NCBI GenBank assembly: GCA_029582165.1
Contig: CM055888.1
Span: forward strand, 15,243,501-15,307,500
DNA: 64,000 bases
Source: Portulaca oleracea
Lineage: Eukaryota; Streptophyta; Magnoliopsida; Caryophyllales; Portulacaceae
Direction of reading: 5' to 3'
In this document: piece after piece, positions 424 through 62,656 of the stretch
How the letters are laid out: the number at the start of each line of letters is the position of its first letter
Numbering within the stretch: position 1 is the stretch's first letter
Notes under the pieces: generated by a model
Databases searched by the model: none
What the model was told of the DNA's origin: nothing
Seen by the model: only the letters and a program-made list of their open reading frames with translations
Made by a program: the position numbers and the translations under genes

Positions 424-429
424 AGTTTT

Positions 430-3243: not shown

Positions 3244-3250
3244 GAGGTAC

Positions 3251-3301
3251 CCTGGTCAAGCTTAGGACGGTAAATAAGCGCTTCTTGGGAGGCAACCCAA
3301 G
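3251..3301 (+). other. Conserved post-coding motif with perfect hairpin
   Basis: Directly after the protease stop lies GGTCAAGC, then the 8-bp palindrome AAGCGCTT (3276-3283), then CTTGGG-AGGCAA-CCCAAG (3284-3301), a perfect 6-bp stem with a 6-nt loop. From memory this block recurs after the pol frame in many Athila/Tat elements. Its job is unknown; RNA structure for packaging or translation is a guess. Confidence 0.6.
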
Positions 3302-5242
3302 CTTTTTAGATTTTATTTTCATTTTTATTAGGATTTTCTAAAATTTTTCCTTATTTTTCTTCTTTTTATATTTGATTCTTCTAGATTTGTGTTTTCTTCC
3401 TTTGCTTCTCGGGTGATGTTTCGCAGTGCGGACAATGCTCGATTCAAGCATGGGGGGATTTGTGTAAACTTTTTGTGGATATGTGTGTTTTGAGTCGTTT
3501 TTATTTTTGATTTTTAACTTGTTTTGAGTCTTTTTCTTTTGTTTTATTTTTATTTTCTTTGTTTTCTAGATTTGTTTGTAGTTTTAATTTCCTCTTTTCG
3601 TAGTTCGTTTTCGTTTTCTTATTTTCTTATTTTCATTTTTAGGCTTGTAAAAAGTTTTTAAAAAAAATTGAAAAAAATCAGAAAATTAAAAAAAAAAACT
3701 GTTTGATATAAGATTTGGCGTGATAGTTTTCTTTTGACTTGATTTGATCCTGTATAGGCCGTTTGTGAAAGACTGTGAATTGACTTGAGTTGTGAAGCTA
3801 ATTGTTGTGAGAATTGTGCTAGGATAGTAAGACCGATTGCTTTTGTATCTATTGTAAGAGTGAGTTGTGCATATGCATATCTTTCAAACTGGGTAATGAT
3901 TGTTGAGCGCTACCCGTGAGTCCACATAAGCCTTAAAGAAAAGACTAATCATTTTTATTAGTCTAATTTCCATGAGTGACTCACCATTGTGGCATCCTTC
4001 TTCATTTGCTTTGCATCTCCTTGAAATTGCTATGCGTTGTACATTGACAAGATGATAGAGGCATTAGGATTTGAACCCGCAAGCCTTGACCACCCGTTTA
4101 CATCATAATATCCTTAGTTAACCCTTTCTAGCCTTGACTTTTTCTCTTCTTGAACCCATATTATGAGCCTTGGCCGATTATATATTTCCTACCCTTAAGC
4201 CATTGCTTGAAATGTGTTGAATATGAAGTTGGGTTGATTGTGGTTACTTTGGTGGTTTGGTTTGTGATGGGGATTGGTTTGAATTGTAAATATTGATTTG
4301 ATTCCCCAAATTATGTGCATTGAGGTTGTTGGTTGGAATTGGTAGCTTGCCTAGTGTGTGTTGTTTATAAGTGTGTATGTTTCATTCAAGAAGCAAGAAA
4401 AAAGAAAAAAAGGGAAAAAAAATCAGAAGAAAAAAAACAGAAAAAAGCGAAAAAGAAAAAATCGGAGAATTCCGCAGAAAAAGAAGAAAAAATGAATAAA
4501 ATGTTTGACATTGTGTTTCTTTTGTTTTGAGGCAAGTTTCCAATTGTTTGTGGGGTTGAATTGGATTGATTTTAAGTGGTGAGAGTGTATGTATGTCGAA
4601 TTGGTGTGAAATAATTTCAAGCTTTGGCTTTTAGCTCCACAATTCCCAAATATTATCCACTCCTTACCCTTAACCCTAGTCCCGTTACAACCCTTGAAAG
4701 TCCTCTTGATTGTCATTGTTGCTTTGCAAATTGCGGTGGAGAGTTGAGATTCTTAGCAAGTACGTGGTTGGTTGTGACTTTGGTTTGAGTATTTGAGCGA
4801 ACTTTCAATGATTTTTCGTATTTAAACACATGAGAGGAGTGCTTCCACATTCCCAAGAAAGTGAGTTTGCTCTTCATTCATACCTAGTTTCATGCTTAAC
4901 ATGTGCCTTCTTATCTCATTCGGTGATTAAGGGTGATTGGTTGAACTTGATGAGTACCATTCTTGAATAATTTGTCTTCATTTACTTGTGTAAATTGGCT
5001 TCTTTTTCACTCTTGGGTTGTACTTTAGATTAGATTGGGTTGATTGAATGTTCTATCATTGCCATCCTGCAGATTTGTAATTAAATAAAAATTTTCGTTT
5101 TCGTTAATTTTTACTTTTGAGTCTTTTTACTTTTGCTTTGAGTTTTTTTGAGTCTTTTTGTCCCGTTTTCTTTTATTTTCTTTCTTTTTCTTTCTTTGCC
5201 TTTTCTTTTGAGTTTGGACTTGCTTAGGGACAGGCAAGGACT
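3302..5242 (+). other. Non-coding 3' region with a second PPT-like tract
   Basis: About 1.9 kb without a credible gene. It is T-rich and pyrimidine-rich at both ends (3302-3660 and 5085-5230) with an A-rich purine run at 4395-4500. At 3445-3462 is a near copy of the real polypurine tract (AAGCATGGGGGGATTT), also placed after a GGACA word. Internal PPT-like copies occur in other gypsy elements. Confidence 0.6.
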
Positions 5243-5257
5243 AAGCATGGGGGATTT
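5243..5257 (+). promoter_or_regulatory. Polypurine tract
   Basis: AAGCATGGGGGATTT lies immediately before the 3' LTR start (TGATAAGTG). It is the expected plus-strand priming site. Confidence 0.8.
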
Positions 5258-6689
5258 TGATAAGTGTTTCTCGTATATATGAGAACTTGGTTGTTTTGAT
5301 GAGAATTTGGGGAATATTTGATTTGATTATGTTATTTTATACCCGAATTTCCCATATTACACTTGGTTTGGAGTTTGGTGAGTTTTGTAGGGAATTTGTG
5401 AAGAATCGATGTAAACCGAGCCCAAAAAGCAAGTGTAGATCCAAGTTATGAGCTTAAAGGACCAAGAAGTGAGATGTTGGATCACCCAAGCCCAAACAAT
5501 GGCCCAAAGTACTCCTAGGCCTGAAAAAGACAGTGGCACGGGTGGTGTCTGCAGTGGCACGGGTAGTGCCTATGACCAGAACGTGAAGAATTGTGTGCAG
5601 TGAAGCGACACGGGTAGTGCCTAGGGGGGCACGGTCCGTGTCACTATGAGCACGGTCCGTGCCACCCCTGGCACGGTCCGTGCCTCTCCTGTCTTTTCAT
5701 TTTCGGCGGTTTTGAGTTGATATTTGCCTATATTATGCTGATTTTCGGCCGAGTAGAGAGGAATCATTCCACCATCTTCCATTCCATGCCCTAATCATAT
5801 CCATATTCCATATTCCATCCACCATTGAAGATTGAGAGAAGATTGAAGATCGAAGAGCAACTTGAACATACTTTGAAGTGGAGGAGCAAAAGTCCTCCAT
5901 TGTTGATTCCTAGCAAGTTTGTTCTTCACTTGGGTTTATTTCTCAATCTCTCATAGATTTTCATATGCTTTCTAGAATAGACTTCAATTGCTTTGTAGTT
6001 TTAAACATGAATTGTGAGTAGTTCTTTTAGTTTAGGGGATGAACCTTTGAAGTTGCTTGATGAATTGACTTTGTTGGATTGAATAATCATGAATTTAGTT
6101 TGTTTCAATCTATTTGGTCTTTGAATTGAATTGTTATTTCTTTTGCTTGATCACCAATTGCATGTTAATAGGTTGTTGAATGAAATACCGAAAGGAGAAG
6201 TTTGATTACCCGAAACCCTAGATTGAACTAGTTAAAATTATCTAGACATAGAAGTTTTAACTAGGGTTCTTGAGATAATTAGATCTTTAACCTTGACTAA
6301 ATCGAAATAACCACGAAAGTAGGTGCTTGGTTAGTCTTGGCAATTCGCTCTAGTGGCAAAATCTCATTGTGAAGTACTCTATGCGATTATCGAACCTTGA
6401 TTGTGCAAATTAATGAAATGAAAGTTCAATCTACATCGTTGATTCGTTATTTGACTTAGGTTTCATCCCCTGAACACCTTTTTCCCTTGATTTCATCAGA
6501 ATAGTTCAGTGAATATTCGTTTGTTTAGACCTTGTTTGTGATTAGAGTTAGATTTAGTTGATTCAAAACAAAAACCCGATCGGCTTAGCGATCAACTAGG
6601 AGGCTAGTTCAGTGCGTTGAAAGGAAAAGTCCCTGTGGGATCGACCTTGATATTTGCTACACGTACACCCGTGCGCTTGCGGCCTATCA
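5258..6689 (+). repeat. 3' LTR of the Athila-type element (1432 bp)
   Basis: It begins TGATAAGTG after the polypurine tract and ends CTATCA; its last 423 bases match the 5' LTR fragment at the window start. U3 contains a palindrome cluster (5535-5684) and then a TATA-like CCTATATTATGC near 5727. The following bases GGGAT are a candidate target duplication. Confidence 0.93.
5535..5684 (+). repeat. U3 palindrome cluster, word GGCACGG-CCGTGCC
   Basis: At least six imperfect copies of one palindromic word occur in 150 bp: near 5535, 5556-5570, 5605-5621, 5628-5642, 5648-5663 and 5670-5684. The last two are nearly perfect (GGCACGGTCCGTGCC). They are irregularly spaced, so this is not a simple tandem repeat. 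Confidence 0.85.
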
Positions 6690-6694
6690 GGGAT

Positions 6695-7945
6695 GCACCC
6701 TACATCGCCAAGCATTTGGTCCCCTCTCTCCTCGCGTTACACTCATAGGGCTTCCTTGAAGTTCTTTGAGAAATACCTCACATTCCTTACCCTAGGGTAT
6801 GGAGCACGGAGATGAAAACGTCCGGTAGGCCATGTAATCCAACCATAGAAAAATCCATGAACATAGAGCGTTGGTTTAGGGTATCCCTTCATGTTGTATG
6901 TTATATGCTATGTGCTACCCCTCCCCCTTTTTCTCTTGTTTTAGAGTCGACCCTAGTTTAGAGGTTTTGTTCTAGTCCATATAAAATTCATTGGGTTGAG
7001 AAAATGATTATTTATTAATTAGAATAATTAAGTCCAAAGGCATCATGGTTAGCCCAAGTGGAAGGGCCCATTTATAATTGAATAGTGATTATCTTGATTA
7101 ATAAATAAAAATCGACTCATCTTTGATGATACTATATGGCCCTTTACAAAATTCTCCTAACAAAGGTCCAAAAAAATTAATTAAAAAAGACCAACAAAGT
7201 TAATGGATAGCGTTTTAGATTGCATAATAGTCACTAAGCTCGAGGAAATTAATTTGTCGATTTAATTAATGAGTTCACCGCATTTATGGTCGGCCCGTTG
7301 TTAGGCCCAACCATATTGGATTTGTTGATTAAACTTATAAATTAATTATGACTCGCTTGTTGTTGACTTTATTCAATCCTTTGCAATATCCATTTTCCTC
7401 GACTAAAAAAAAAGAAAAAAAATGCAAAATAAGGTAAAAAATAAAAAAGAGGATAAAAAAATGGGTCATCAGTCTTGTTAAGCATTATTATAGTCCGCAT
7501 AATAGTCATTGTGGCTTGAGCTGTGTAAGTTGCTAGTTCAAGTTACGGATTCTCCTTAAAACGGTTGGCCTATGGTTTGGGCCCATCCGAATTGAGAAAC
7601 ACTGACTTGAACCTATCAACTTATGTCCCGCTCGCTATTTGACTTTATTCGGCCCTTTATAATATTTTGTCCATAGGTTCATATAGAGTTAGATCATACA
7701 CTCCCGAAAAGTGGGTGAGTCCTTTGCGTCAGCATATATGTGTCGAGTCAGTTAGGATCATATAGGTCTTTTAGGGCATGCATGCATCGGGTAGTACGTG
7801 TCAGAGTATGTCATCGAGTGTTCTAACTTTGAATTTCCATGCAGGCATCATTGGTGATCAACTCTGAGCCCGCATTCGAGATCCACGACCTGGTCGTTTG
7901 ATTCCGAACCCACATTATAATCCATCTGCAACTAGCGACTGCATC
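6695..7945 (+). other. Leader of the Tat element, non-coding
   Basis: 1.25 kb between the inserted Athila-type element and gag. No reading frame of note. It holds repeated short phrases (GGCCCAACCAT, GCATAATAGTCA at two places) and an A-rich run near 7405-7460. No LTR end or primer site was found. Confidence 0.5.
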
Positions 7946-9433
7946 ATGTCTGGAGAGCAATTCCAAGAAGTCCCGATCCAAAACACTGAAGCCAACATCA
8001 CGAAGCATTTAGACGAGCTCTATACCAAAATGCAAGGTCTTGTGTTCGCTAATACCCTAGAGCAGGAACAGAAGATGAGCAAAAGGATGAGTGAACAACA
8101 ACAGGTAATGGATGGTATGCTACAGGCCGTCACTAAGATCAACACCAAGTTAGGGCTGAATGTTGAGGAGGATGACGAAGAAATGCAAGGATATGAGTCT
8201 GATCCTGAAATCATCAAGACATCCTCAAACTCTGGAGGAATAGGGATATCTAAGGCTAAGGTTAACACACCTGAAGTGTCAAAACCTACAAGGGACCCCG
8301 CTGTTAAAGCCCTTGAGCAGAAGCTAGAAAGTCTCACCAAAGCAATTAGTTCTGTCCCGGCCTTTGCTGAAAAATACTTGGAGGTTCCATTGCCTGTTCA
8401 GCCAACTCTAAAGATAGCTGAAAAAGTTGAAGTGCCAAATATTAGGTTCAAACCTTCTGAGAACCCTATTCATCATATTGAGGAGTTCATGAGGCTGGCA
8501 CATTTAAACCGGATTGATGTTGACTTATATTCTACCGCACGTCTTCCCATCCACTCTAGATGGTGAAGCAAAGATATGGTATCATGCATTATCCCCTCAA
8601 ATCAAAGCCAACTGGAGTGAATTGTTTAAGGATTTTATCCACCATTACACCTGCATCCAGAAGAAGCAAGCTATGGTGGATGACCTAACCGCCATGAAGC
8701 AACGAGAAGATGAGTCCTTTATGGATTACTTTGAAAGATGGCATACAAAATTGTCCCACATCAATGAGACAATTCCTCTCCGCTTGCAGTTATCTACCTT
8801 TAACCAAGGACTCAAGAGCAGTCTATCCAAACATTTGGGGTACCATGTCGTTAAAGACTTTGACTACCTAAAAGACATCTGTGTTCAACTAGAGGCGATA
8901 CACCATGATAAGACCACTTTCTTGGATGGAAAGGGTCCAGCTCCAACAGGAGGGCCACTAGTGCGGCTAGCCACCCTCCTAAGATTATGGAGACTAACTT
9001 TATCCAGCGCAAAGGGCCTTATGTGCTGAAGTACGAGACCTATACTCCATTGGATGTCCCTTACTCTCAGGCTCTCGACCGTCTGGTCAAGAAGGGTATC
9101 TTGGTTTTGCCCTTACCGAAAGAAGAGCCATAAATCAAAGGCAGAAACTGGGATGCCAACCAATTTTGCCACTATCACCGTTGCCGAGGGCATGACACTG
9201 AGAAATGTTGGACTCTCAGAAACAAAATAGAAGATTTGATTAGGGCAGGGACATTACCAATGCCAAAAGCTGCCAAGAGACCAAACAATCAAAGTAATCC
9301 TATGCCTGAGCATGCAGATGCTATTTTCTGCGGGGATTTCAGCTTCGATCCCTCTACTCTGATTGTAGAAACAGGCCAACTTGTCCCCGAAGTAGTTGGT
9401 TTTCCTGAAGGTCTTTTCATCCATGGGATTTAG
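7946..9433 (+). pseudogene. gag: Tat-type gag, frameshifted
   Basis: Structural protein of the Tat element. The first ATG is at 7946; the frame is open slightly upstream. The N-terminal 160 residues are acidic and coiled-coil-like. The Retrotrans_gag domain starts with RFKPSENPIHHIEEF, shifts frame near 8530-8560, and continues as LDGEAKIWYHALSP through FMDYFERWHTKLSH to about 8930. A second shift near 8960-9050 leads to a zinc-finger-like segment, CHYHRCRGHDTEKC (about 9170-9215), the usual Tat nucleocapsid signature. An in-frame TAG at 9431-9433 ends this open stretch although the same frame continues into the protease region. Confidence 0.82.
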
Positions 9434-10654
9434 GACATTGATGAAGATGATGAGTATGAGCATTCTGAGACAGAGTGGATGGAGAAAGATGAACCAGATG
9501 ATGTGGCATTTCTTACTCGGTCTGGCCGCCGCAACCATAGGAATACCACCACCCCAGTGACTGTTCCTAACCCAACACCAATGGTCGACAATGACAATCA
9601 GGTCTCCCCTGAAGATCCTCTTCTTTCTCAACTCAAAAAGACAAGGGCAGAAGTTACCATATGGCAACTCATATGCACATCACATGCTCATAGACAAAAG
9701 ATGTTGGATGCCCTTACACCACTTACGGTATCTCCCACAACAACTCCCGAGTCATTGGTTGCTCATGTTACTACCCAACAGGAGATGATTACTTTTGGGA
9801 TTGAAGATCTACCTCAAGGAGGAGCATCTCACAACAAAGCCCTGTATCATACAGTGCAATGCTCCAACAAAACTATCCCACTGGTTCTAATTGACAACGG
9901 TTCAGCTGTAAATGTGTGCCCTTGGAGGACGGCGTAAAAATTAGGGGTTCAACAACAACACTTGGCTCAGAACGGTGTACAACTAAGGGCATATGACAAT
10001 TCGCCTCGGAAATCAGCCGGATCTATACTGTTGTCAATCACTACCGGCAGCGTCATTCGGAATGTGGAATTTGTGGTGCTAGACATTCCAACCTCTTTCA
10101 ATTTGCTATTAGGGAGACCATGGCTTCACGAGTGTAATGCTGTAGCATCCACTCTACATCAAAAGGTGAAAATGCTGGTTCAAGATCAAGTGATCACCAT
10201 CTCAGCAGAATCTATCAATGCTGTTTTCACCCCTAAACAGTCAACTCTTGAAGTGGAGCACAACTCAATGGATGAAGGACTCCACAATTTTGAGCTTGTG
10301 GCGATGATGAGCCAGGATGAAGCACCTTTTGACTTCGATCCCTACTCAAATTCCAAGGTACATGCTATGCTCAAGAAACAAGGATATTTCCCGGGAATGC
10401 CATTGGATAAGAATCCGAAGAATAAATTTCCTCCTGTTTTGAAGACTTTCAAGCAACAGGGAAGGTTCGGCTTAGGCTACAAGCCAACTGAGAAGGAGAT
10501 CAGGCTCGCAAAGATGGCTATAACTGAACAGAAGAGGATGGATAATCCTCCCACTTTATTCCAGAGGAAGCCCTATCCACTTACTCTTAATGGGCAGTTT
10601 GTTAGGGAAGGTGATGACTTCCCCTACTATGGGTTCCCTGAGCCCTTTTACTGA
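9434..10654 (+). pseudogene. Tat-type aspartic protease region
   Basis: An acidic linker (9434-9780) leads to the retropepsin domain. The active site reads LIDNGSAVNVCP (about 9890-9925), the DNG variant usual in this clade. An in-frame TAA at 9935-9937 lies just after it. The frame resumes with LLGRPWLHECNAVAST, the second conserved protease segment, and then the linker to RT (GRFGLGYKPTEKE). The frame ends at TGA 10652-10654. Expected role: cleavage of the Gag-Pol precursor; this copy is dead. Confidence 0.8.
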
Positions 10655-12212
10655 ATAACAAGGGAATTCAAGTTGCTGGATTGGAAGTCTTAGATGATTG
10701 CTCCATTAATATGGCTACTGTCTTTGTTCCCGCTCGGGACAAACAGCCTCCATTAGAATAGACTCATCTTGCTGGGAGCAACATTTTTGGCATGATGTTT
10801 GGACAAGAAGTCGTCCAAGAGAAGTCTGAAGCTGATGTTATTATTGCTGCTTTGTCCAACCCAAGCTTCGATCCAAGTTCCATGATTAATGAAGACGGAG
10901 AAGTTAAGGCGGTCTCGTGGGTCGACGCTGAGGAGAATAATTTTGCTTTATCTGTAGGAGAGTCTGTTCCCAAGGACATAGGGTCAAGTCTTAAGGGTCC
11001 AGAGTCAAGTGAGTGTGGTCTTGAGTCTGCCGGCGATGTATTCCTTTCTGCATTCAATAAGATGAACCTTTCCCCTCTTCCTTGAACTGCTGCGCCCATA
11101 ATAATCTGGAATTTAGTGAACCCTTAAAAGAATTTTCTAATGAACATGAGCATAAAATGGCGGTGTTGAAAGACACCATCACCATAAACGTGGGCACAGA
11201 AGAGCAACCTCGGGAGTTGAAGTTAGGTAGTTCACTCACAACAGAAGAACGGGTAGCATTCACGGAGCTTCTCAAAGAGTTTGTGGACGTTTTCGCATGG
11301 TCCTACGAGGACATGCCTGGGATTGACAGGGAAATTGTGGAGAACACCATACCTTTGCTTCCTAATACAAAACTGGTTCAACAAAAGGCTAGGAGGATCA
11401 AGCCAGAATGGGCTAAGAAGATTGAGGAGGAAATAATCAAGCAGCTTAACGCTAAATTCATCAAGACAGTCCAATATCCTGAATGGATTGGTAACATTGT
11501 TCCGGTGCCCAAGAAAGATGTGTGCATGGACTTTCGAGACCTTAATAAAGCTAGTCCCAAGGATAGTTTCCCTTTACCTCACATCGATATATTAGTGGAT
11601 AACACTTGCGGACATGAACTCCTATCCTTTATGGATGGATATGCTGGTTACAACCAAATCAAAATGGCAGAAGAAGACATGGAGAAAACCTCATTCACTA
11701 CGCCATGAGGAACATACTGTTATGTGGTTATGCCTTTTGGTCTCAAAAATGCTCGAGCAACATATCAAAGAACTGCCAACACCCTACTTCATGACATGAT
11801 GCACATAGAGGTAGAGGTTTATGTGGATGACATGATTGTTAAGTCTAAAACAAGGGAGGAGCACATTCCTAACCTTAGCAAGTTCTTTCTACGACTTCGC
11901 AAATACAAGATGCGGCTTAATCCAGCAAAGTACACCTTCGGTGTTACCTCTGGGAAGCTGCTGGGTTATGTGGTTAGCCAACGAGGCATTGATGTTGACC
12001 CTTCCAAGATAAAGGCTATCCAAGAGTTGCAACCTCCCAAGACAGAAAAAGAGATCAGAGGCTTCCTAGGACGAGTTAAATATATCAGCAGGTTCATTTC
12101 AAAGCTCACCATGACTTGTGAACCTTTGTTCAAGAAATTAAAGAAAGGAAGCAAAGTAGAATGGGACGATCAATGTCAAGCGGCCTTTGACAAAATCAAG
12201 GAGTATTTATAG
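10655..12212 (+). pseudogene. Tat-type reverse transcriptase
   Basis: After a frameshift near 10655 a linker runs to 11085; another shift leads into RT proper. Visible motifs: FAWSYEDMPGID (start of RT), PVPKKD followed by MDFRDLNKASPKD, MDGYAGYNQIKM, VMPFGLKNARATYQ, the catalytic YVDDMIVKSK (codons 11820-11831), then LGYVVSQRGIDVDP and GFLGRVKYISRFI. A few residues normally found between PVPKKDG and CVDFRDLN are missing, so there is an in-frame deletion near 11517. Stops: TGA at 11706 replaces the Trp codon before GTYCYVVMPFG, and TAG at 12210 replaces a Gln codon; both fit single transitions. Confidence 0.88.
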
Positions 12213-12227
12213 CATCCTCCAATCCTC

Positions 12228-12683
12228 ATGCCACCAGTACCAGATGAGCCTCTACTCCTTTACCTTACTGTGACTAGCTCTACAATGGGGGCTACGCTAG
12301 CTCAAAAGGTTAAAGGTCAGGAGAGCGCCATCTACTACTTGAGCAAGAAGTTCTTGGACTATGAAAGTCGATACGCAGACATAGAGAAAATGGCTCTTGC
12401 ACTAGTATGGGCCACCAAGAAGTTAAGACATTACATGCTTTCACATACAGTGTATGTTATAGCTGAGAATAATCCCATCAAGTTCATCATGGAGCAACCT
12501 ACCATCAAAAACCGCATTGCTCGATGGGTGGTCATGCTTTCGGAGTTCAATCTTCAGTACCTGCCTAAGAAATCAATCAAAGGATGGGTTGTTTCAGATT
12601 TCCTAGCTGCTTCACCATCACAGGAACCTCCGAGCACTCACTTGGAATTCCAGATGAGGATGTATTCTTCACTGACGAAATAA
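12228..12683 (+). pseudogene. First RNase H domain of the Tat polyprotein
   Basis: It continues in the RT frame after the TAG at 12210. The start LLLYLTVTSSTMGATLAQ, the segment YADIEKMALALVWATKKLRHYM and the end RWVVMLSEFNLQYLPKKSIKG match the RNase H that follows gypsy RT. The first catalytic Asp of active enzymes (LY-D/L-S) is Leu-Tyr-Leu-Thr here, as in Tat elements, where this first RNase H is degenerate and the second one is thought to take over. The frame ends at TAA 12681-12683. Confidence 0.82.
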
Positions 12684-13051
12684 CATAGGAAATGTATTTC
12701 GACGGAGCTTCCAATCAAATGGGCTGCGGAGTAGGAGTACTACTAATCTCTCTAGAAGGGGCACATGTCCCTGTGTCTGTGAAGTTGGATTTTTATGCTA
12801 CTAACAACGCTGTCGAATATGAAGCATGCATCAAGGGCTTACAAGCTGCATTGACCTTGGGAATACGTCACATAAAAGTCTTCGGAGATTCTAGCCTCAT
12901 CATTAATCAGGCTAAAAATGCATGGAAGGTCCGGAATGAATGTCTTACGGTAACCAGCAGAAGCTCTTGGGACTTGCCGACCAATTCGAGGTAAATCAGC
13001 TTCCAGTACCTCTCAAGGGATCACAATGAGTTAGCTGACGCCCTAGCCAAG
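12684..13051 (+). pseudogene. Second (archaeal-type) RNase H
   Basis: After a shift at about 12690 the sequence reads MYFDGASNQMGCGVGVLL, then NNAVEYEACIKGLQAAL and KVFGDSSLIINQ. These contain the D-E-D residues of a type-I RNase H (the Asp of FDGA, the Glu of EYEA, the Asp of GDSS). This additional RNase H defines the Tat clade. Two more shifts near 12950 and 13005 are needed to reach FQYLSRDHNELADALAKL, where the last conserved His and Asp lie. Confidence 0.85.
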
Positions 13052-14339
13052 TTGTCTTCAATGATATCGATACCATCAGGCACGCTCCAATTACCAGTAG
13101 TAGTAGAACGACAGGCTGAACCTGCATATGTTTGCAACATGGAGGCACAAGAGGACGAGACTGAGGGATGGTTCCATGACATATACAATTTTCTTCGGAA
13201 AGGAGAATATCCAGCTGAGTTGGATGCTCGAGGACAGCGAGCGATTAGGTCTCTAGCAGCACAATACTGCTTGATCCAAGATCGCCTTTACAAAAAATCA
13301 CCTACGAGCATTAATTTATTATGTATCGATGCTAAGAGCGCCAAGGAGGTCATGGCTACTGTACATGGAGGAGAGTGTGGTCCCCACATGAATGGACGTA
13401 TGCTAGCGAAGAAGATTCAAAAGGCCGGTTATTTTTGGTCCACTGTGGAGGCGGATTGCTTAGAGTTTGTTGGAAAGTGTCACAAATGCCAAGAGTATGC
13501 CAACCTACAGCATCAACCCCCATCATACCTAACTACTTTGACATCTCCATAGCCGTTCTCAGTATGGGGTATCGACTTCATTGGCAAGATACACCCAACT
13601 GGAATATGAGGACATGAGTACATATTGGTCGCCATCGATTACTTCACTAAGTGGGTAGAGGCAGCCTCATTTGCCAAGCTCACGTCCAAGCAAGTGGCCA
13701 AATTCATTCTCCAAAACATCATATATCGATATGGAGTACCTCATGAGGTCATTAGTGACAATGGAAGCCATTTTCGGAAGGAAGTTTTGCTCGCCACTTA
13801 CAAAATTCAGCATCACCGATCTTCGCCATACCGACCTTAAGCTAATAGAGCCGTGGAAGCGGCCAATAAGACAGTAGCGGGAATCATCAAGAAAATGGTT
13901 GTCACTTACAAAGATTGGCCGGATAAATTAGCATTTGCCCTGTAGGGATACCGAACCTCAATACGAACATCTACAGGTGCAACACCATATTCTTTGGTAT
14001 ATGGGATGGAGGCAGTCCTACCGATAGAAGTAGCAATCCCTTCGCTACGAGTAGTAGCAGAAAGTCAACTGCCAGAAGCAGAATGGGCTCGGGCAAGGTT
14101 CGAGGAGTTAATATTAATGGATGAAAGGCGATTGAGGGCATTGCATAATGTGCACGTGTACCAAAGTAGGATCACTCGTGCTTTTAATAAGAAGGTGAAA
14201 AGTCATTCACTTCAAGTAGGTAATTTGGTGCTTAGGGAGATGAGGGCACCTATACAAGATCCAAGAGGAAAATTTGTACCTAATTGGAAGGGTCCTTACA
14301 TGATTAAGGACATTTTGCCAGGAGGAGCAGCTCGGCTTG

Positions 14340-16387: not shown

Positions 16388-17855
16388 CTAATCTTGCTTC
16401 ACTTTCTCTATTTCGCCAGATGTCTCGTGGTCAGTCTCCTTGTCTCTAGGTCCGTTAAGAGTTTTCTCTTTGTCTTTGGGCTTATAGGCCCACCTACTTG
16501 GTTTTTGTACCTCCACTCTCGGACCGAGTCTATCCTTCACCGAGTCTCTCGCGCCCAGGAGGTCCTTTACCGATGTACGAGGACCCAGTCTTTCCTTTGC
16601 AGATGCTTGTCTCTTTCTCACTTCCCCACCGCGGCGAGATTCAACAGCAGCAATCAGCCATCCATGGTAGTCAGTATCGGCAATATGAGACATGTGTATC
16701 TTTGGAGGGGCTTTGAGAGTAGGCCTTCTTTCCCAGTATTTCAACCACGACTCAATCACCGAGCCTCGAAGCTTCAATTGATCAGAAGTCTCACACAGGA
16801 GCTCAGGGATGTCCTGCTTGCGACCCATCTGGTGCTTCACTCGCGCCGAAAAATAAAAGGTCATGTGCGTCAAGCCAGCGAGACACACATAAGCATTGCG
16901 GAAGTCATGGGACACATATTCGGAAATGTGCCACCATTCGATCCACCATAAGATCTCCTGAGGCTCCTTCTAGAATGCGATCCATTCTGTTACCGAGCGA
17001 AGGTCGGTATATTTCCTCTTTCTCTAACAATAGTTCGCCAACGCCAATGAAGTTCGGGATTCTTCAATGAGACCCAAGTGATCCATCAACCAGATCTGCC
17101 TAACAATTAGCTAGGGTTAGATTGCATGCCAATATCCCAAACTAACTAACTAAAAAAAAAAAAAGAACAAAACCCGCGCGGGTTTTGCAGACATCAGAGG
17201 CAGAAACCAAGTAGAGGTGAAAAGGAGAGTGAAATACCTGAAGTAGCAACGGGCTTCCTCGAAAGTCATGTTCTGGAGTCTGATCATCCAAGCCCATCAT
17301 GGTTTCCGCTAACATTAGAGGCACGAGATTGTAGCCTCGGGACATGTCGTCGACGATTTGGATCAAATTCGCCGGTCCGGTTCTTCTGTCGCCGTGATAA
17401 AAACAAAACTCGCCAAGGAGACATAATACGAGCGCTCGCACTCGTATCACAGGACTGTATTCCAAGGTATCGGGAGATTGAAAATATTCAACTATGGTTT
17501 GGAAGTGTACCTTTTCGCCGAATATTGCGCTTCTGATGACCTGAGAAGGAAGTCATAAGAGCTCCTTGTATTGCTTAGGGATGTCTGCTGGCGTTGGAGG
17601 CGACGTCGGCCGAGCAAAGTGATTTGTCCCTAGGATTGAGGACCATTCCTCCGGAAGCGGACATAACTCCTTCCACGCTAAGCGAAAGACATGCATTTTC
17701 GGATCCCAAAAAGTCTCCGCCGCACGGAGAAAATCGCTGTTAATTCTCACTTGTCGAAGACTCATCAAGCTCGTTAACTTGTATCTTCCGAGCTCTTTCT
17801 TCTCTTCTTTGGGCAAGGTGTTCATCCAAGTTGCAAGTTTCTTCTCGAATGCCAT
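16388..17855 (-). pseudogene. Antisense plant-mobile-domain-like (DUF7745-type) gene
   Basis: It lies between INT and the 3' LTR, on the opposite strand. Start: ATG at 17855. Exon 1 runs to 17238 and reads FWDPKMHVFRLAWKELCPL-EEWSSILG, then VRALVLCLLGEFCFYHGD and MLAETMMGLD. A 142-bp GT-AG intron (17096-17237; CAG|GTATTT and GCAG|ATC) joins in frame to exon 2 (WLMDHLGLIEES, then YVCLAGLTHMTFYFSARV and QMGRKQDIPE). The C-terminal tail is charged and low in complexity. This order matches the DUF7745/plant mobile domain family by my recollection. Stops: TGA 17553-17555 in exon 1 and two TAG in exon 2, so this copy is dead. Antisense ORFs at this spot are known in Tat elements; their role is not established. 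Confidence 0.72.
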
Positions 17856-18173
17856 GAGAACCGGCAAGTTTTCTTTGAGTTTTAGGAGAATATGTGATGA
17901 AGGCTTGGAAGTAGTGATGAGTAGTGATGATTATATGCATAACATGGAGTATTTATACACCTCCATTTATGATCAAAAATGGAGAAAATGCAACCAGCAA
18001 CGATCACATAGTCGTTGCCCTCCATATCCCATGATTTTAGCTTATTTGCAACGGCTAGAAAAAAAAAAGCAATATCAAAACACGCGCAGGTTTTGATGTG
18101 TCCAAATCCACGCGCGCGCCTGTCCAAGCCAAGGCCCAGAGCCTGCTGAAGAGAAAACCCGCGTGGGTTTTCT
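17168..18173 (+). repeat. LTR-type palindromes inside the Tat internal region
   Basis: Three palindromes of the AAAACCC-GGGTTTT type occur away from the LTR: 17168-17187 (in the intron of the antisense gene), 18074-18097 (arms ATCAAAAC/GTTTTGAT) and 18152-18173 (arms AGAAAACCC/GGGTTTTCT, loop GCGT). The same word fills the 3' LTR of this element at 19408-20596. Confidence 0.85.
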
Positions 18174-18655: not shown

Positions 18656-19205
18656 GGTTGCCACAGAAAAGAGCACCATCATCTGGTCGCCGCCAAAAGG
18701 GACCATCCATCGTCAGGTTGTCGTATAAAAGAGCACCATCATCGGGTCGCCGCTAAAAAGGGACCATCCGTCATCCGGTTGCCGTATAAAAGAGCACCAT
18801 CAGCGACAGTCATCCAACGGTTGCCACCTAAAGGCCTCCAACGATGTCGTCAACGACAGTTATCCAACCGTTGCCACCTAAAGGCCTCCAACGATGTCGT
18901 CAGCAACAGTCGTCCAACGGGTTCCACATAAAGGACTCTGACGATGTTAGCAACATCAGTCATTCAAACAGATTCCACTTAAAGGTCTCCAAACGACATT
19001 CTTAGCATCGGTCGTCCAACGGTTACCACCTAAAGGTTACCGACGATCTCTTCATCAGCAGCAGTCGTTCAAACGGGTTCCACTTAAAGGTCTCCAAACG
19101 ACATCCTTAGCATCAGTCGTCAAATGGTTGCTACCTAAAGGTTATCGACGACACCATCAGCAGCAACGTCACCTGGTCGCCATGTAAAAGAGCACTACCA
19201 GCGTC
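18656..19205 (+). repeat. Degenerate tandem repeats in the 3' UTR of the Tat element
   Basis: Two related units. Unit A (about 64 bp; GTCGCCGC-AAAAGGGACCATC, then GTATAAAAGAGCACCATCA) is repeated at 18656-18800 and comes back at about 19170. Unit B (about 52-60 bp; GTTGCCACCTAAAGG-CTCCAACGA) fills 18800-19160 in about seven diverged copies. Such arrays just before the 3' LTR are known in Tat elements and can seed satellites. Confidence 0.8.
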
Positions 19206-19269: not shown

Positions 19270-20854
19270 TGTAGACACCGGGATTTACACCGATATAATC
19301 CCAACATATCAAGAGTTTAAATGAAACATCTGGGTCGGATACATCATTGGGCCAATGTAACAAGCAAAGCAAACAAAAACAAGTTTAAGGTGGCCCACTA
19401 TCAAGAACAAAACCCGCACGGGTTTTGATTAAGGAGGCGGCCCAGAACCAGAACAGGCCCAAGGTGCGCCCCAGCCCAGAGGCTTCAAAACCCGTGCGGG
19501 TTTTGTTTTACCTAAGCGCGTCGTTTTGGCTCCGTCCACGTCAGCGATCCGTGCCTGGATATTATAAAACCCGCGCGGGTTTTAATTTCCAGAAGTTGGC
19601 GCCAACATCTTTGATCATCCTTGATTTTAGCCCACATGGTTTGACCTTCTGCCTTGACCTCCCATAACCCGCACGGGTTTTGATCTTTCATTGAGATGGA
19701 GAGCATGATCCTAGGGATGTGTCTCCCTCCATTTCCCTCCAAATCCCTCACCTCATCACCTATAAATACCCCCTCATAATCACTCTCATTTCATCAACAA
19801 TCATCCTCTATCACCCTTATTCTACCAAATTTCCACCAACTATTATCATCATCCTACCTACACTCTCTTAAACTCTCTCTATTATCCATTCTCTTATTAT
19901 TATCCTCTTACTCTACCAAATTCTCATCACATCATTATCCATATATCACCCTTCTATCATCCTCATACTTATCCTTTCATCCTCCAAGTCAAAGGAAGTC
20001 AAGATTTTGATCGGTGCATTCGGATTCCTAAACCAACGAGGTTCGCCCTATGTTTCTTTCGTTATTTTAATTATGTAATTCGTATTTCATTTCCATTACT
20101 TGTGCATATTTTGTAAATAAAAACCTTGTTTTATAATGCAGGTTAAGAATATAAAGTTGCGAAATTAATTAAACTTCTCCCCGCTCTATTTTCATTTTAA
20201 TGTCGATTTTAGTAGAGTCTGTTTTCTAACAGGCGAATTCGAGAATTCTTAAAATTCTCGAATTCGTAACCTTACCCCCGAACTTAGAGTCGGATTTCGT
20301 AGACCGGATTTATTCTTAATTTTATGGTTTGTCGGTTCCTTAAATCTACTGGCGACTCTTATTTCTTTTATAACCCATTTAATTATTTTAAACATACGGA
20401 TTTACACCAAAATACTTAAAAAATCATTTAGTATTTTTTGTATATTAATCCAAGGCTAAAACTGAGAGAAAAAGGGTCTAAAATTGATAAAACCCTCGCG
20501 GGTTTTATCAATTTCAGCCCATGTTCTCTGGCCAAAAGAAAAGCACGATCTAGCCCATGGACAATTAAAACCCGTGCGGGTTTTAGCTGTCCATGGCGAC
20601 CCGTTTGCTTTCTGTTGGGCCTAGATCTGATATTCGGGTCAAAACTGAATTATTTTAAATTATTTCGATGTAATTTCGAATATTTAAATAATAAAAATTT
20701 ATTTGTAAAATAAATAAAATTTCACCACCCCGAAAATGAATTTCATAAAATAAAAATATCCTTATTTAAGGATTAAGCAACCTTAGTCGGCTCCCGATCG
20801 TTTAGTTAGTGCATCGCGGAGAAAAGGGGTGCACCCTTTTCCCGGGGTCCTACA
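19270..20854 (+). repeat. LTR of the TGTAGACACC family (3' LTR of the Tat element)
   Basis: It starts TGTAGACACCGGG and ends GGGGTCCTACA. The TATA box is CCTATAAATACCCC near 19758. It is homologous end to end with the minus-strand LTR at 61104-62656 (shared ends, CTTCTCCCCGCT, GAATTCGAGAATTCTT, GGCGAATTCG). The flanks show no matching 5-bp duplication (CTCTC and ACTCC), which fits a 3' LTR rather than a solo LTR. The link to the Tat element rests on position and on the shared palindrome word. Confidence 0.8.
19408..20596 (+). repeat. Palindromes of the AAAACCC-GGGTTTT word in the LTR
   Basis: Upstream of the TATA box: 19408-19427, 19486-19505, 19565-19584, 19664-19682. Downstream (U5): 20481-20514, with perfect 15-bp arms AAATTGATAAAACCC and loop TCGC; and 20555-20596, where arms CCATGGACA/TGTCCATGG enclose AAAACCC-GGGTTTT. 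All have a 4-nt centre. Confidence 0.9.
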
Positions 20855-31689: not shown

Positions 31690-34600
31690 ATGTCAAGAGA
31701 AGCTGATAATTCAAGTGAAGGAGAAGAGGTAAGTTTGTAAATTTCAATTTTGAAAAAAAATAACAAAAAATTTTGATTTTGAAGCCGGTGCCAGCGCCGA
31801 TCATGTGGCGGCTTAGCGCTAAGATCTTGGCGCCATGGCGGTGCAGTGCCGCCAAGATCTTGGCGTGGCTGCGCCATGGGCAAATCATGCAGCCCCGACT
31901 TCCCGTAATTTTAATTTTTTTTTCAAAATATTTATAAAATATTAATAATATTATTTATGTAAAAAATATTATTTATTTATTTATATTAATATTATTAAGA
32001 TAATCAATGTCGTTAATTATAATTGTTATGTTAATTATGTTAAACTTATGTCAAAACATATTATTATAAATAAGTTGTTTATAAGTGTTGTTATTATTAT
32101 TATAGTATGTTAATTATGCTAATTATTATTGTTAATATTATTATGTATTTATTTATATTATTATTATTAATGATATCAAAGTTGTTAATTATAATTGTCA
32201 ATTAATATTATTATTACAAGTTGTTTATAAGTGTAGTTATTAATATTATTAAGTGTTGTTAAAATTATTATTTATTTATTTAATGTTGTTAATTGTTTGC
32301 AGGTTTTTTTGGAGGACTTTGGCGGGGACGGCGTTGATTATTCCACTCAGTTTGTAACTCAAAATATTTTTGACAGTATTGACGCCTTGCAAGAATGGGC
32401 TAATGGAGTTGCTGCGGGAATAGGTTTTAGGTTTGTACGGGCTTCGTACAAGAGAAAAGATGCGGAGAGTCCGTTAAGGTGTTACTTGAAGTGTTGGAGG
32501 TATGGAAAATATCATGGGAAATTGAATAATCTCGATGATGCGACTCGTCGGAGAACGTCAACGAAGGCGTGCCAATGTAAATTCGTCATTGTTGCGTGGA
32601 CTCGCAACGAAACGGAATGGCGAGTTCGTGTGTGCGACGGTGACCGGGCGAAACACAATCATGCCTTCATCGTGTACGAGGAAGGGCATCGTCACGGACA
32701 TCCATTAACATCTGAAATGAAAGAACATGTCCGGGATATGACCAACACGGGGTGCACACCGGCCACGATCCAAACGTCGTTGAAGATTAGGTTCCCTGCC
32801 TCTGCGATAAACGTGAAGCAAGTGTACAATGAGCGGGAAAAGTTGCGAACCGAGGAAATGGATGGTAGGACAGCTGTGGGACAATGTCTACACATGGCGA
32901 AACTCGGCGGGTACATCTCATTTGTTGATTATGATGATGATGGCGAGCTTCGTCAGGTTTTTTTATGTCATCCTTACTCATTGAAGTTGTTACGTACGTA
33001 CCCGAATGTCATTCTCATTGACACTACGTATAAGACAAATAAGGCAAAGTGGCCTTTATGTGAGCTGGTAGGCGTGACACCGACAAACCGCAACTTCCAG
33101 ATTGCTTACTCGTTCATGCGGGACGAGAAGATGGAATCATATGAGTGGCTGATGTGGAGGGTGCATGAATTGTTGGGTCCTGATGTTATTCCATCCGTGT
33201 TTGTGACTGACAAACTGGATGCTTTGTTGGGGGCGGTTGCCAAGGTTTACCCAAATTCGCACCAACTTTTGTGCGTGTGGCATACTGGGAATGATGTCGA
33301 GAACAAAGTAAACAAACTCACTGGGGGCCCTAAGCTCGGACTCGGGCTTCATTTCAGACATCATTTCTGGAACGGCATTGTACATGCGAAGACTGTTGGA
33401 GATTTCAAGGTGAAGTGGAACGACGTTGTTAACGCGTGGATTGGGCAAAACAAACCGATAGTGGAGTATACATCGGGGCGTGAGTCATAAAGAAAAATTT
33501 GTTTGTGCTTGGACCGACAATGTACCTCACATGGGGAACACAGCGACTTCTAGAGTTGAGAGCCAGCATTCTTCACTGAAGTACTATATCGGCAGTTCCA
33601 GAGGCAACTTCGATCGTGTGTTTGCGAAGATTCACCATCACTTGGAGAATCAACATACAGAGATTAAATGGGAGCTTGAACAGTCAAGGAGCACGCACAG
33701 GCATTTAGGTCACTCTCATTTCTTTAAGAATTTGCACGGAAAAGTATCTCATCACGCATTGGACCTTTTGTCGTATGAGTTCAATACGATGCTGGCGATG
33801 ACGTATGAAGGAGAATGTTTCTTATGCGATCACCTGGTGTCGAGAACCCACCTCCTCCCGTGCGCGTGTTCTATGATGGAAGTTTACGCAGCTGGAGAGC
33901 CAATTCCGCTGACACGGATAAATATGTTTTGGAGACAACTGACAGTGATTGGCGATGGTGAAACTCCTTGCTCAAATGATGTTCCATCAGGTACTGACTT
34001 AGAACAATTTGAGGCATATGCTAAACAGGTTCGGGAGAGTGACCCAGCAGTTGTACGACACGTAAACAGTGTCCTTGATGGAGAGTTGAATCCCGAGAGT
34101 CAGTATATTCCTGATCCACAGACAAGCCCCCCACGCCCCGGGAGACCAAAGACTTCAAAATCAACGCGACGCAACCCCAGTGCGTTTGAGTACGGACGAA
34201 CATCGGGACGGGGTATCAAGACTACAACGAACTCCTCGAAGAAAAAGGGAACTAGTTCTTCATCAGTTGGGATGGGTTCAACAGGTGTGCATATCTTAAA
34301 TTTTATAGCCGGTGTTTAGGGTTTTCATAATGACTACATATTGTTGTTTATAACTTAAGATAATATGGTGCGCAGGTATCAACCGGATGTCTCAAGATCC
34401 GTTCCCGTTCGAGGACGCTTTGCCACATTTCATTATGCCATACGTCGTTGGATGGACGGATGTTCTCGGTGATGGCAACTATGGGTTCAGATGCGTAGCC
34501 GAGGCATGTTACGGGGATGAGAAATTGTGGTCAACTGCTAGGTGGTCAATGGGCATTGAGTTGCAGGCGTGTGAAGATGCATATGTTAATGCGTTTTTTA

Positions 34601-35017
34601 ACAGCAAGGAGATGTTCCTTGAATCCTTCAGAAGGATACAAGGCCACTTGGAAGGGCCAGCCCCCGTATGAACATTGGAAGTCTGCTCCAAATGATTTAT
34701 TTCCAGCTGCGACAGTGACGAATATGATGTGGATCTTCTTGTCAACAACTACTGGTCCACGATCGCAGACAGCTGAGCTATGCATATCAATATTACCCAT
34801 ACGAGGTGGGCCTAGACGTACGACACCAAAGAAAGTTCAGGGAATTGTGCGAGTCAACAACCACTTCATGCTTATCCATCTACGGGATGACTGCCCTCTA
34901 CCGCCGATTCATATTGGATGGCAAGCAGCTAGAGACGTATCTGTTCAAGGTTGGGATGAGCCTTTCCAGGCTCGTATTGATAGATGGCAGGCTATTAGGG
35001 CCGCTCAACGCCAATGA
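31690..35017 (+). pseudogene. MULE transposase fused to an OTU-type protease domain, two frameshifts
   Basis: Predicted exons: 31690-31728 (MSREADNSSEGEE, donor GTAAGT), 32303-34284 (acceptor TTTGCAG), 34376-35017. Exon 2 begins with a FAR1/WRKY-GCM1-like zinc segment (CYLKC, KACQCKF, HNH). The MULE DDE core follows: LIDTTYKTN, VFVTDKLDAL, LLCVWH and SRVESQHSSLK. A SWIM-like end reads CFLCDHLVSRTHLLPCAC. Exon 3 is OTU-like: WTDVLGDGNYGFRCVAEACYG, then VNNHFMLIHLRDD. Where active OTU enzymes have DGNC the codon is TAT (34480-34482), so the catalytic Cys is Tyr. A frameshift near 33478 lies between the second Asp and the Glu of the DDE set. Another at 34661-34665 fits one extra C in a C-run. 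Stop TGA 35015-35017. It would bind the TIRs and cut the element out; the OTU role in MULEs is not known. Confidence 0.82.
31790..31885 (+). repeat. GC-rich palindromes in intron 1 of the transposase gene
   Basis: An island of high GC in an AT-rich intron. The main stem is AAGATCTTGGCG (31821-31832) with CGCCAAGATCTT (31850-31861). Further GGCGCCATGG and GCGCCATGG words repeat to 31880. Confidence 0.85.
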
Positions 35018-35250
35018 TGGCTATAGTTGTATCATTGTCTTTATATGAATTGCTAATTATATTTATATTGGAACTCATGCAGTTAATTGGAACGTAACAC
35101 AAATTAACACAAATTAACATAAATTAACACAAATTACCATCGAAACGCAATGTCACGGTTGATACAACACAAAATCAGTTAATCAGTTCAACACAAATGA
35201 ACACTAAGTTTAGGGAATATTAAAAACAATGAAATTGGGGCAAACTGACG
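35018..35250. other. Gap between the two convergent MULE genes
   Basis: The shared 3' UTR zone. It contains a short tandem of AATTAACACAA units (35096-35140). Confidence 0.6.
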
Positions 35251-38123: not shown

Positions 38124-38393
38124 CGACAGTTTTTTTTTATTTTTTTTCGTTTTTCTTCAAATTACAAAACTACAAAATATAAAACCACAAATTCAAAACA
38201 CAAATTCGAAACATACCTCAATTTCGTCGATTCAATCCCGGTATGTGGTGGTCGATGGTTGAGAGCGTTTTCTAGAGAGATAAAGTAGAGAGAGAGTGAA
38301 GAGTGAAGTTATGAGGTTCAAGGGCGTGGGTTGGAAATATTATGCGAAAGGTGGGCGACAATAGTAAAATGGGGGGCGGCGATAAGCAAACGG

Positions 38394-61103: not shown

Positions 61104-62656
61104 TGTAGGACCCCGGAAAAACCACGTTTTTGATGAGTGTGCTACTTAGTGATCGGGAGCCAACTAAGGTTGTTTAATCCTTAAATAAGGATATTTTTAT
61201 TTTATAAAACATTTTCGAGATGAGAGACTTTTATTCATTTACGAACCTATTTTTATCATTAAAATACCCGAAATTACACAAAAATATTTTACTAATGACC
61301 TAACACCGACCCATTTACAAATCTGGGCCAGAGAGAAGGCACCTGGACTGCCAGGGAGTGCCATAGGTCGCATGACCTATGACAGTCCCATGACTGGGCC
61401 TATCCCTCGACCTAGAGAACAAATGGATAGAAATTAGCATAGGCCATGTGGCCTATGCTAATTTTTGTGCCCTTTTCTCAAGCTAGCCTCAGATTTATAC
61501 AATGAAAGTGCTAAATCATTTATAAGTATTTTTATGCAATAACGTGTATATTTAATAATTAAAAAGGTTATAAAGAAGAGTCACCAACCGATTTAAGGAA
61601 ATCGAAAAACCCAAAACGAAATAAAAATAACTATGGTCTATGAACTCGAATTCCGAATTCGGGGGCAAGATTATGAATTCGAGAATTAAAGAATTCTCGA
61701 ATCCGCCTGTTTGAAAACCGACTCTACTAGAAACGAACTTGAAATGAAATGAGCGGGGAGAAGTATAATAAATTTCACAAAATTAATATTCCGAACATGC
61801 AAGGATTAAAATATGAAGTTTTTACAAAATAATGTACATGTAAGCCAACTTAAAGAATAAAAATTACATGATTGGAATATAAAAGATGCAGAACCTCACT
61901 TTAAGCAAAAGATCGATCTCCTTATAACGAACGATGTTGAATTAGAACCTTGGATGAAATGATGGATGTTTGATGATAGTGAGAATTGTAGTGTATGGAT
62001 GATAGGATGATGATGGCTAGGATGATTATGGGAGAGAATGTGAGAGAGGATGATAGTAAGTGATGAGAGTTGATGGGGAAAGATGATGAGAAAAGTTGAT
62101 AGGATTAGTTGATGACAGTTGTTGATGAAATGAATGGAGAGGTGGGGGTACTTATAGGTGAAGGATGAAGGGATGAAGATGGAAGGGTGAGGGACATGAT
62201 CCAAAGATCATGCCTCACCATGCAACATCATAGGTCACATGGCCTATGATGATTTTCTGGTCAAACAGAGTCAATCATAAGGGCTGTGATCAAGGAATTG
62301 GCTGGGGAGATTTCTGCCGCCAAAATCAAATTATATTGCATAGGTCAGGCGGCCTATGCCGTGCAATCACACGGATTTCTGACGTGGACACTGGCAGCGG
62401 GCTGGGTTTTCAACAGTGTAGGCTAGGCGGCCTACGCTTCACATTTCTGGGCCGGATTTGCTAGCTGGGTCAAGCTGGGAGGCGTTGTAGGCTATGCGGC
62501 TTACGCCTTTTAAACTCGGACTTGGCTTGTTTGATGGGCCTGTCTCGATAGCATCGTAGGCCCGATGGCCTATGCTGGTTCTTGGACCATGATTTGCTGG
62601 GTTTTGGCAGGTCGAGTTTGATTTCCGAATTGTCGGTTCAAATCCTGGTGTCTACA
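61104..62656 (-). mobile_element. Solo LTR (1553 bp) of the TGTAGACACC family inside the LINE
   Basis: Sense (minus) ends TGTAGACACCAGG and CGGGGTCCTACA. The flanks GCTGC (61099-61103) and GCTTC (62657-62661) agree at 4 of 5 bases. TATA region CCTATAAGTACCCCC near 62150. Homologous along its length with 19270-20854. Confidence 0.88.
61362..62576 (-). repeat. Palindromes of the CATAGGCC-GGCCTATG word in the LTR
   Basis: 61362-61381; 61431-61464 (perfect 15-bp arms AAATTAGCATAGGCC, loop ATGT); 62226-62251; 62338-62359; 62416-62439; 62480-62508; 62551-62576. Nearly all have a 4-nt centre. Several arm mismatches are of the T/G wobble type. Confidence 0.9.

Follow-up and report, generated by a model that had tools for sequence, protein, structure and literature searches.

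Palindromic words that change in parallel across a retrotransposon LTR family of Portulaca oleracea, with a candidate reader encoded by the element

How can two homologous long terminal repeats (LTRs) carry palindromes at the same places and yet spell a different word in each? The question is raised by a 64,000-nucleotide stretch of Portulaca oleracea DNA (assembly GCA_029582165.1, contig CM055888.1, positions 15,243,501 to 15,307,500; hereafter the window), in which a sequence-only reading had picked out two such LTRs, here called WA and WB. Our best reading is an element-wide regulon, in which the palindromes are operators that drift together with a candidate VANC-like DNA-binding protein encoded by the element. 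We consider it probable that the palindromes are read as DNA by a protein, most likely the element's own antisense product of the plant mobile domain (PMD) type, the DUF7745 type, or both. The two LTRs are:

19270..20854, plus strand: WA, 3' LTR of a Tat/Retand-like Ty3/gypsy element, AAAACCC word class (identified by a polypurine tract (PPT)-like stretch, a 5' LTR partner and a target site duplication (TSD))
61104..62656, minus strand: WB, LTR of the CRTAGGYC word class, solo-like, with no internal region seen

Judged by alignment, WA and WB are homologous LTRs; they lie where the sequence-only reading had placed them, and over their full length 891 of 1459 aligned columns are identical. The PPT-like CAAAGTAGAGGCTCTC stands immediately 5' of WA, the 5' partner LTR (L046:2164-3749, just left of the window) is 95.4% identical to WA, and the TSD of the element, GCTCC/ACTCC, matches at 4 of 5 bases. 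On either side of WB, which resembles a solo LTR, stand GAAGC and GCAGC, again with one base in five different. The family is large, with 5,807 matches to one 35-base pattern of the framework, that is, the LTR sequence outside the palindromes (at most 3 mismatches; all genome-wide counts cover the 1.13-Gb assembly).

Each palindromic site consists of two arms of about 8 bp that face each other across a free 4-bp centre. WA has five exact AAAACCC-N4-GGGTTTT sites and one with a single mismatch; WB has seven that follow CRTAGGYC-N4-GRCCTAYG, including two with mismatches. The sites, to which no strand is assigned, and the sense TATA box of WA are:

19409..19426: WA palindrome U3a, AAAACCC-GCAC-GGGTTTT (alignment and word scan)
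19487..19504: WA palindrome U3b, 78 bp from U3a
19566..19583: WA palindrome U3c, 79 bp from U3b
19664..19681: WA palindrome U3d, one mismatch
19757..19770, plus strand: WA sense TATA box CACCTATAAATACC (TATA[AT]A at this position in 47 of 59 LTRs)
20489..20506: WA palindrome U5a, core of a long RNA-capable hairpin
20567..20584: WA palindrome U5b, 78 bp from U5a, core of a covarying hairpin
61362..61381: WB palindrome U5b
61438..61457: WB palindrome U5a
62229..62248: WB palindrome U3d
62339..62358: WB palindrome U3c
62417..62436: WB palindrome U3b, two mismatches
62486..62505: WB palindrome U3a, three mismatches
62555..62574: WB seventh palindrome, outermost in U3

As the sequence-only reading had described, one group of palindromes lies 5' of the TATA box and another in U5, at matching framework positions in WA and WB; the flanks that it quoted for individual palindromes are present in both LTRs, and the words differ between them. 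Its picture of contiguous arms and of a single fixed word in WB does not hold. The contiguous word CATAGGCCGGCCTATG, which is the arms without the centre, has no match genome-wide, and the half-sites of WB are a mixture of CATAGGCC, CGTAGGCC and CATAGGTC. With the centre left free, AAAACCC-N4-GGGTTTT has 13,382 genome matches against 26 for the same pattern read backwards, and CRTAGGYC-N4-GRCCTAYG has 957 against 4.

Alignments of 32 and then 61 LTRs place up to six sites (U3a to U3d 5' of the TATA box, U5a and U5b) at matching framework positions, U3d being absent from many AAAACCC LTRs. Six partial LTRs were left out ahead of the 61-LTR alignment, and L055 once it had been made. Site scoring mostly required at least 6 of 8 paired positions, and centre orientation and the words read on the tree at least 5. 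In a mononucleotide-shuffle test of single sites (p < 0.05, 32 LTRs), the palindrome passed in 14/30 cases at U3a, 9/30 at U3b, 13/29 at U3c, 5/19 at U3d, 23/32 at U5a and 25/32 at U5b; because only part of the sites pass, many have decayed in single copies. Neighbouring sites are about 78 bp apart, with 76-80 bp found in 34 of 39 scored LTRs for U3b-c, 44 of 48 for U5a-b and 23 of 35 for U3a-b; the exceptions are U3c-d (96-111 bp) and U3a-b in the CATAGG class (67-70 bp). Helical phasing was considered and dropped, since the list of spacings near 78 bp gave no specific period.

The centres have an orientation of their own. At U3 sites GCnn outnumbers nnGC by 118 to 19 (both 24, other 46), U5b is mostly nnGC (27 vs 2) and U5a is mixed (21 vs 18), so that the asymmetric centre is in general reversed between U3 and U5b; in L002, L052, L057, L059 and L060 most U3 centres are GCCT and most U5 centres its reverse complement, AGGC. 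That every centre points toward the promoter of its site was considered, but the PMD gene contradicts it. A further LTR palindrome, at 20233-20267 in WA (GAATTCGAGAATT..AATTCTCGAATTC) and 61675-61704 on the minus strand, is kept across word classes, folds as a strong hairpin and does not change with the word. In the middle of the LTR an antisense TATAAA occurs in 46 of 59 LTRs, where background windows have a mean of 11% and a maximum of 78%, which is suggestive only.

How one word gave way to another was followed on a framework tree of 60 LTRs, built with the sites masked and midpoint-rooted, along which the word classes and INTERMEDIATES were read as a series; the series itself carries no direction of change. 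It runs AAAACCC, AAAAGCC, AAAGGCC, CATAGGCC, with mixed intermediates. At one end of the tree stands AAAACCC with the centre GCRC, followed by a clade with U3 centre GCCT and U5 centre AGGC, and at the other end is the WB clade with CRTAGGYC. Five LTRs, often mixed in their words, lie between the classes. L018 has AAAACCC except for AAAAGCC at U5a; L050 has AAAAGCC and CAAAGGC, read from L050 itself among 40 scored L050-like candidates (L050 included); L007 has CAAAAGCC, CAAAGGCC and CGTAGG; L008 and L001 have AAAGGTC and GCAAGGCC. The branches that join them to the rest of that side have support of 0.96 (L018), 0.99 (L050), 0.79 (L007) and 1.0 (the L008/L001 pair), and the grouping of L008 with L001 has 0.29. 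By nearest word, the 19 scored sites of these five LTRs comprise 8 of the middle word, 5 CATAGG, 5 AAAACCC and 1 with none.

Outside the intermediates the class word dominates: by the same scoring it fills 134 of 136 sites of the AAAACCC class (30 LTRs), 41 of 43 of the GCCT class (eight LTRs) and 78 of 79 of the CATAGG class (17 LTRs), counts that are partly circular because classes were assigned from tree and words together and only sites with at least 6 of 8 paired positions were scored. The sampling was non-random. Most LTRs of the AAAACCC and GCCT classes come from contig C1, where they matched the framework exactly or nearly so; of the CATAGG class, 14 are long matches chosen among 73 BLAST rows with WB. 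Several of the LTRs in the set are pairs from single elements. That each LTR has one word is thus right as to dominance; in the intermediates the words are mixed, and not all sites are intact. Alignment on the framework, the check that had been proposed for this locus, returned the same sites across classes together with just those mixed intermediates that were to speak against replacement of the word as a set. The change of word is stepwise and parallel over many half-sites, about twelve per LTR having undergone identical changes, and this points to a shared trans-acting reader and not to copying.

Copying is the mechanism implied by the earlier idea of homogenisation within an element: gene conversion or template switching between palindromes would write one word over the others. 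Short inverted repeats can indeed template each other. Between different sites of one LTR the arms agree at 0.89-0.93 (AAAACCC) or 0.79 (CATAGG), whereas their 10-bp flanks agree at 0.26-0.29; at the same site, the arms of the AAAACCC and CATAGG classes agree at 0.44-0.47. The centres of the CATAGG class agree more by site (0.64) than within an LTR (0.42), so that in this class only the arms are alike; the AAAACCC class shows little difference (0.72 by site, 0.65 within an LTR). Seven LTR pairs were presumed to be the 5' and 3' LTRs of one element, the WA pair after a check of its TSD and the other six by their nearness, orientation and identity. Pooled over these pairs, arm differences number 35 in 550 positions (6.4%), against 3.5% for the framework, the arms being the more diverged in five pairs. 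Because centres in the CATAGG class keep their site identity, flanks are unlike and the arms of pairs diverge faster, homogenisation by copying is unsupported; the same word also recurs at sites several kb away, and we regard this explanation as very unlikely. Between elements of one class the ratio of arm to framework divergence is 0.65-0.82, and between AAAACCC and CATAGG it is 1.61. With arms that decay faster within pairs and more slowly within a class, it follows that words are kept in transposing lineages and decay in static copies, a sign of constraint in active lineages.

The distant sites lie in the antisense-gene region between pol and the 3' LTR. Internal regions were scanned with each word at up to 2 mismatches, for which shuffled sequence gave 0 to 0.4 sites per internal region. 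Each element examined has its own word there: three sites in the window element, nine in L037, five in L035, five and two in the C23 element and three, of the middle word, in L084. L085, a GCCT-class element taken to check this expectation, has five sites, four of them with the centre GCCT. At the same threshold CRTAGGYC had no match in the internal regions of AAAACCC elements, and AAAACCC none in those of C23 or L084; one site of L084, itself a middle-word site, matches CRTAGGYC with 2 mismatches, and the AAAAGCC pattern, being one step from both main words, also matches AAAACCC and C23 sites with 2 mismatches. The same scan found no word site in L036, L038 and L082 (gag-pol) or in the internal regions of L031 and L032, two elements without antisense open reading frames (ORFs), and a single one in L034, at the end of an antisense gene. 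In the window the region contains:

17148..17864, minus strand: the WA element's antisense gene of the DUF7745 type (its ATG lies at 17855 and its first open piece runs to 17556; PF24924 with E 1.6e-4, below the curated cut-off)
17950..17957, minus strand: TATA box TATAAATA of the antisense gene, conserved in four elements
18077..18094, no strand: candidate operator 135 bp upstream of the antisense TATA, two mismatches
18154..18171, no strand: candidate operator 212 bp upstream of the antisense TATA, exact
17169..17186, no strand: candidate operator about 770 bp downstream of the antisense TATA, exact

In the window element, L037 and L035 the ATG of the DUF7745-type gene follows the conserved antisense TATA by 84-95 bp, and sites lie 135-138 and 212-216 bp upstream of that TATA. 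PMD is presumably driven by another antisense TATA, which in L037 precedes the PMD reading frame by about 0.9 kb; the first site lies 211-258 bp upstream of this second TATA in L037, L035, L084, L085 and C23. Neighbouring internal sites are mostly 74-83 bp apart, with distances of 64, 66, 89 and 126 bp also found.

Two families encoded here are candidates for the reader. PMD (PF10536) scores above the Pfam gathering threshold of 34.9 bits in L037 (55.2) and L035 (35.5). In the window, at 32237-36839, a Mutator-like element (MULE) transposase domain (PF10551, 5.6e-22) lies beside an opposite-strand PMD frame that is open over 435 amino acids. The structure model of the PMD protein from this gene matches the fold of DNA-bound VANC21, and the MULE and PMD pair would therefore be a VANDAL-like arrangement; by the model, a family with a DNA-binder fold is also encoded beside the palindromic sites. 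A search of solved structures by sequence gave no relevant match. Near the MULE, GC-rich inverted repeats at 37892-38152 (arms of 75-86 nt, 85-88% complementary) are possibly a MULE end or another element.

Under the operator reading, the palindromes would serve three putative promoter regions, those of the sense LTR promoter (with the second group in U5), the DUF7745-type gene and the PMD gene, the TATA boxes being taken as promoters. A PMD or DUF7745-type protein may bind the palindrome as a dimer. As its specificity drifted, selection on copies that still transpose would pull all half-sites along, and such shared drift would explain why there is one word per lineage, why lineages differ and why intermediates exist. 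Like VANC, the protein would bind only copies of its own lineage and open or activate them, its own promoter included, and non-autonomous derivatives that keep the LTR word could be served in trans. The retrotransposon PMD would be the protein that binds the word, the choice between the antisense genes being provisional, and its effect would be anti-silencing or activation. A bolder form of this proposal, to which we give slightly less than an even chance, is that the PMD proteins of Tat/Retand-like elements are their VANC, with an anti-silencing or activating role, and that the genome keeps a nearly complete walk of specificity, readers and operators together, from AAAACCC to CATAGGCC.

A protein reader could also come from the host. 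The words would then be sites of host transcription factors, and lineages would have switched between family members of different specificity. Many LTRs use host factors, and the operators do lie 5' of TATA boxes. Conserved CCACGTCA and GGCGCCAAA columns, which we take to resemble bZIP and E2F sites, flank U3c at about LTR positions 266-340 (window 19536-19610). If such motifs shifted with the class, a host origin would gain, and the exact GGCGCCAAA does fade, from 20 of 30 AAAACCC LTRs to 1 of 17 CATAGG LTRs, whereas the CCACGTCA columns are kept in most of 59 LTRs across classes. A free motif scan (at most 1 mismatch over about 1,150 bp, 53 of 60) does not discriminate because chance matches are frequent. 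A stepwise series at every site with extant intermediates better fits a reader that changes with the element, which itself holds candidate readers beside the operators, and we think a host factor unlikely.

RNA structure is another means by which one word might be forced on all arms, through hairpins in the U5 leader or U5-U3 pairing in genomic RNA. The U5a and U5b sites are nested in longer stems, whose outer pairing (0.74 and 0.72) exceeds that obtained when the stem is slid (0.29-0.53), whereas at U3a and U3c the symmetry stops at the word and the same test found no outer stem. Covariation at U5b is 0.543 against 0.256 in shuffles (0 of 500 as high) and at most 0.157 when slid, with 184 double-change cells against 72.5; the number of U5b pairs changed on both sides is unremarkable (15 vs 13.2, a value reached or passed in 80 of 500 shuffles), and in the outer-stem test positions with double-change types do not discriminate. 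In the U5b outer stem G-U cells (73) exceed A-C cells (32), an excess that is missing in the U5a outer stem (27 vs 42) and reversed in the U3a word (10 vs 34), so that a stem in sense-strand RNA is supported for U5b alone. As pairing would have it, the two arms match at position -7 of CRTAGGYC in all 31 U5 sites and in 40 of 48 U3 sites; at the Y position (-2) they differ in 14 of the 31 U5 sites and in at least 17 of the 48 in U3. RNA pairing does not account for the identical word at antisense-gene regions. RNA structure is therefore improbable as the source of the common word, and it is likely that the U5 copies hold a second, RNA role beside their operator role.

The U5 hairpins fold strongly (z -3.4 to -7.2), which would also suit sources or decoys of small interfering RNAs (siRNAs), the words changing to escape matching siRNAs. 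Escape of this kind has reportedly been proposed for maize Sireviruses, and Bousios in 2016 is said to have described palindrome-rich LTR regions as hotspots of siRNAs and of sequence evolution. Such escape requires neither one common word at every site nor set distances upstream of antisense TATA boxes, and we give it very little weight.

Several observations weigh against operators read by an element-encoded protein. In two of the seven LTR pairs the arms are less diverged than the framework, and their faster decay after insertion is partly expected because they are CpG-rich; the faster divergence of antisense ORFs than of pol may be general. The folded PMD belongs to the gene beside the MULE and not to a retrotransposon, the retrotransposon PMD being its relative in sequence (22% identity over 141 aligned columns). 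The PMD copies of C23 and L084 each hold one stop, the window's own element has no PMD match and only the DUF7745-type gene, and that family gave no usable structure model (pLDDT 41.9). At the DUF7745-type gene of C23 the sites are weak (2 mismatches each) and lie at 142 and 306 bp, and the U3a-b spacing is itself shortened in the CATAGG class. Operators do not need the covarying outer stems of the U5 sites. The control that host motifs in the same LTR stay unshifted is of limited discriminating power, which slightly lowers confidence in the operator reading and raises that in a host factor, and the VANC21 target YAGTATTAY lacks this palindromic form (PMC5735166).

The element to which WA belongs can be placed from its internal remains:

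7775..14338, plus strand: gag-pol remains of the WA element, with broken frames (tblastn to the gag, protease, pol and integrase of L036)

These remains, which contain stops, are 81-89% identical to the L036 proteins, with one 38-amino-acid pol piece at 79%. L036 carries RVT_1, RT_RNaseH and RVT_3 at 6175-8502 and rve at 8481-9659. A second RNase H-like domain in pol is a hallmark of Tat elements. By its pol domains the WA element is thus placed as Ty3/gypsy and Tat/Retand-like, and since integrase follows reverse transcriptase and RNase H, as in Ty3/gypsy, it is not a Ty1/copia Sirevirus. Antisense ORFs between pol and the 3' LTR, a Retand feature, are present; TRP28 (PF04195) had no match in the antisense ORF pieces scanned, whose frames are broken and of which part was covered. 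Another LTR retroelement at 1-6566, with Retrotrans_gag and end repeats 99% alike, apparently sits between the primer-binding site and gag of the WA element. Just 5' of the WA LTR, at 18951-19160, are two tandem 105-bp copies, 84% alike, which resemble the tandem arrays reported between pol and the 3' LTR in Retand.

Among titles and abstract openings of the best-ranked matches in the open literature, no report of palindrome words, of a word walk or of antisense-gene operators was found, and none of five forms of the AAAACCC word occurs in the open literature text searched. Retand elements are described, in the available part of the report, as having a long region between pol and the 3' LTR with antisense genes, and the TRP28 domain, present in 97% of Retand clusters, was suggested to be a regulatory DNA binder (PMC11963269). 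The elements studied here share that region; their antisense genes, however, are of the PMD and DUF7745 types, and the same part of the report makes no mention of operators of this kind (PMC11963269). The RM boxes of Sireviruses, as far as the excerpted report goes, are palindromes of which each LTR has several 5' of the TATA box; their sequence is specific to the element, mostly with a shared CGG-CCG core, and some elements have them near the env gene too (PMC2829016). Number, position and element-specific sequence are alike; those elements are Ty1/copia and these Ty3/gypsy, and here homologous sites are traced through the change of word, extend to U5 and antisense genes, and have a candidate reader (PMC2829016). 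In Arabidopsis the PMD proteins MAIN and MAIL1 act with PP7L, and the promoter motif 'DOWN' is enriched in genes that need them, according to the portion of the report available (PMC7156037). A PMD family with an associated promoter motif is common to both systems, but MAIN and MAIL1 are host proteins, for which that portion of the report describes no direct binding to DNA (PMC7156037).

The closest comparison is with the VANC proteins of Arabidopsis VANDAL transposons, for which, in the accessible part of the source, a short motif repeated in non-coding regions differs among related families and coevolution with the protein was proposed (PMC5735166). Such a motif is found here too, and a candidate reader family has the VANC21 fold in its PMD model. 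The elements here are LTR retrotransposons and not VANDAL-type MULEs, and their palindromic motif, whose 4-bp centre is free, keeps to fixed sites in the LTR and in antisense-gene regions, unlike the VANDAL motif, which is spread by tandem repeats (PMC5735166). This system bears on what antisense genes do in plant Ty3/gypsy elements and on how the PMD family acts biochemically, and a word readable from sequence, an adjacent candidate reader and living intermediates make the joint change of specificity and half-sites testable. If the proposal is true, domesticated PMD genes such as MAIN and MAIL1 derive from DNA readers borne by transposons, and VANC-type self-recognition extends from DNA transposons to LTR retrotransposons; by analogy, the system would work as VANC does without being a VANDAL.
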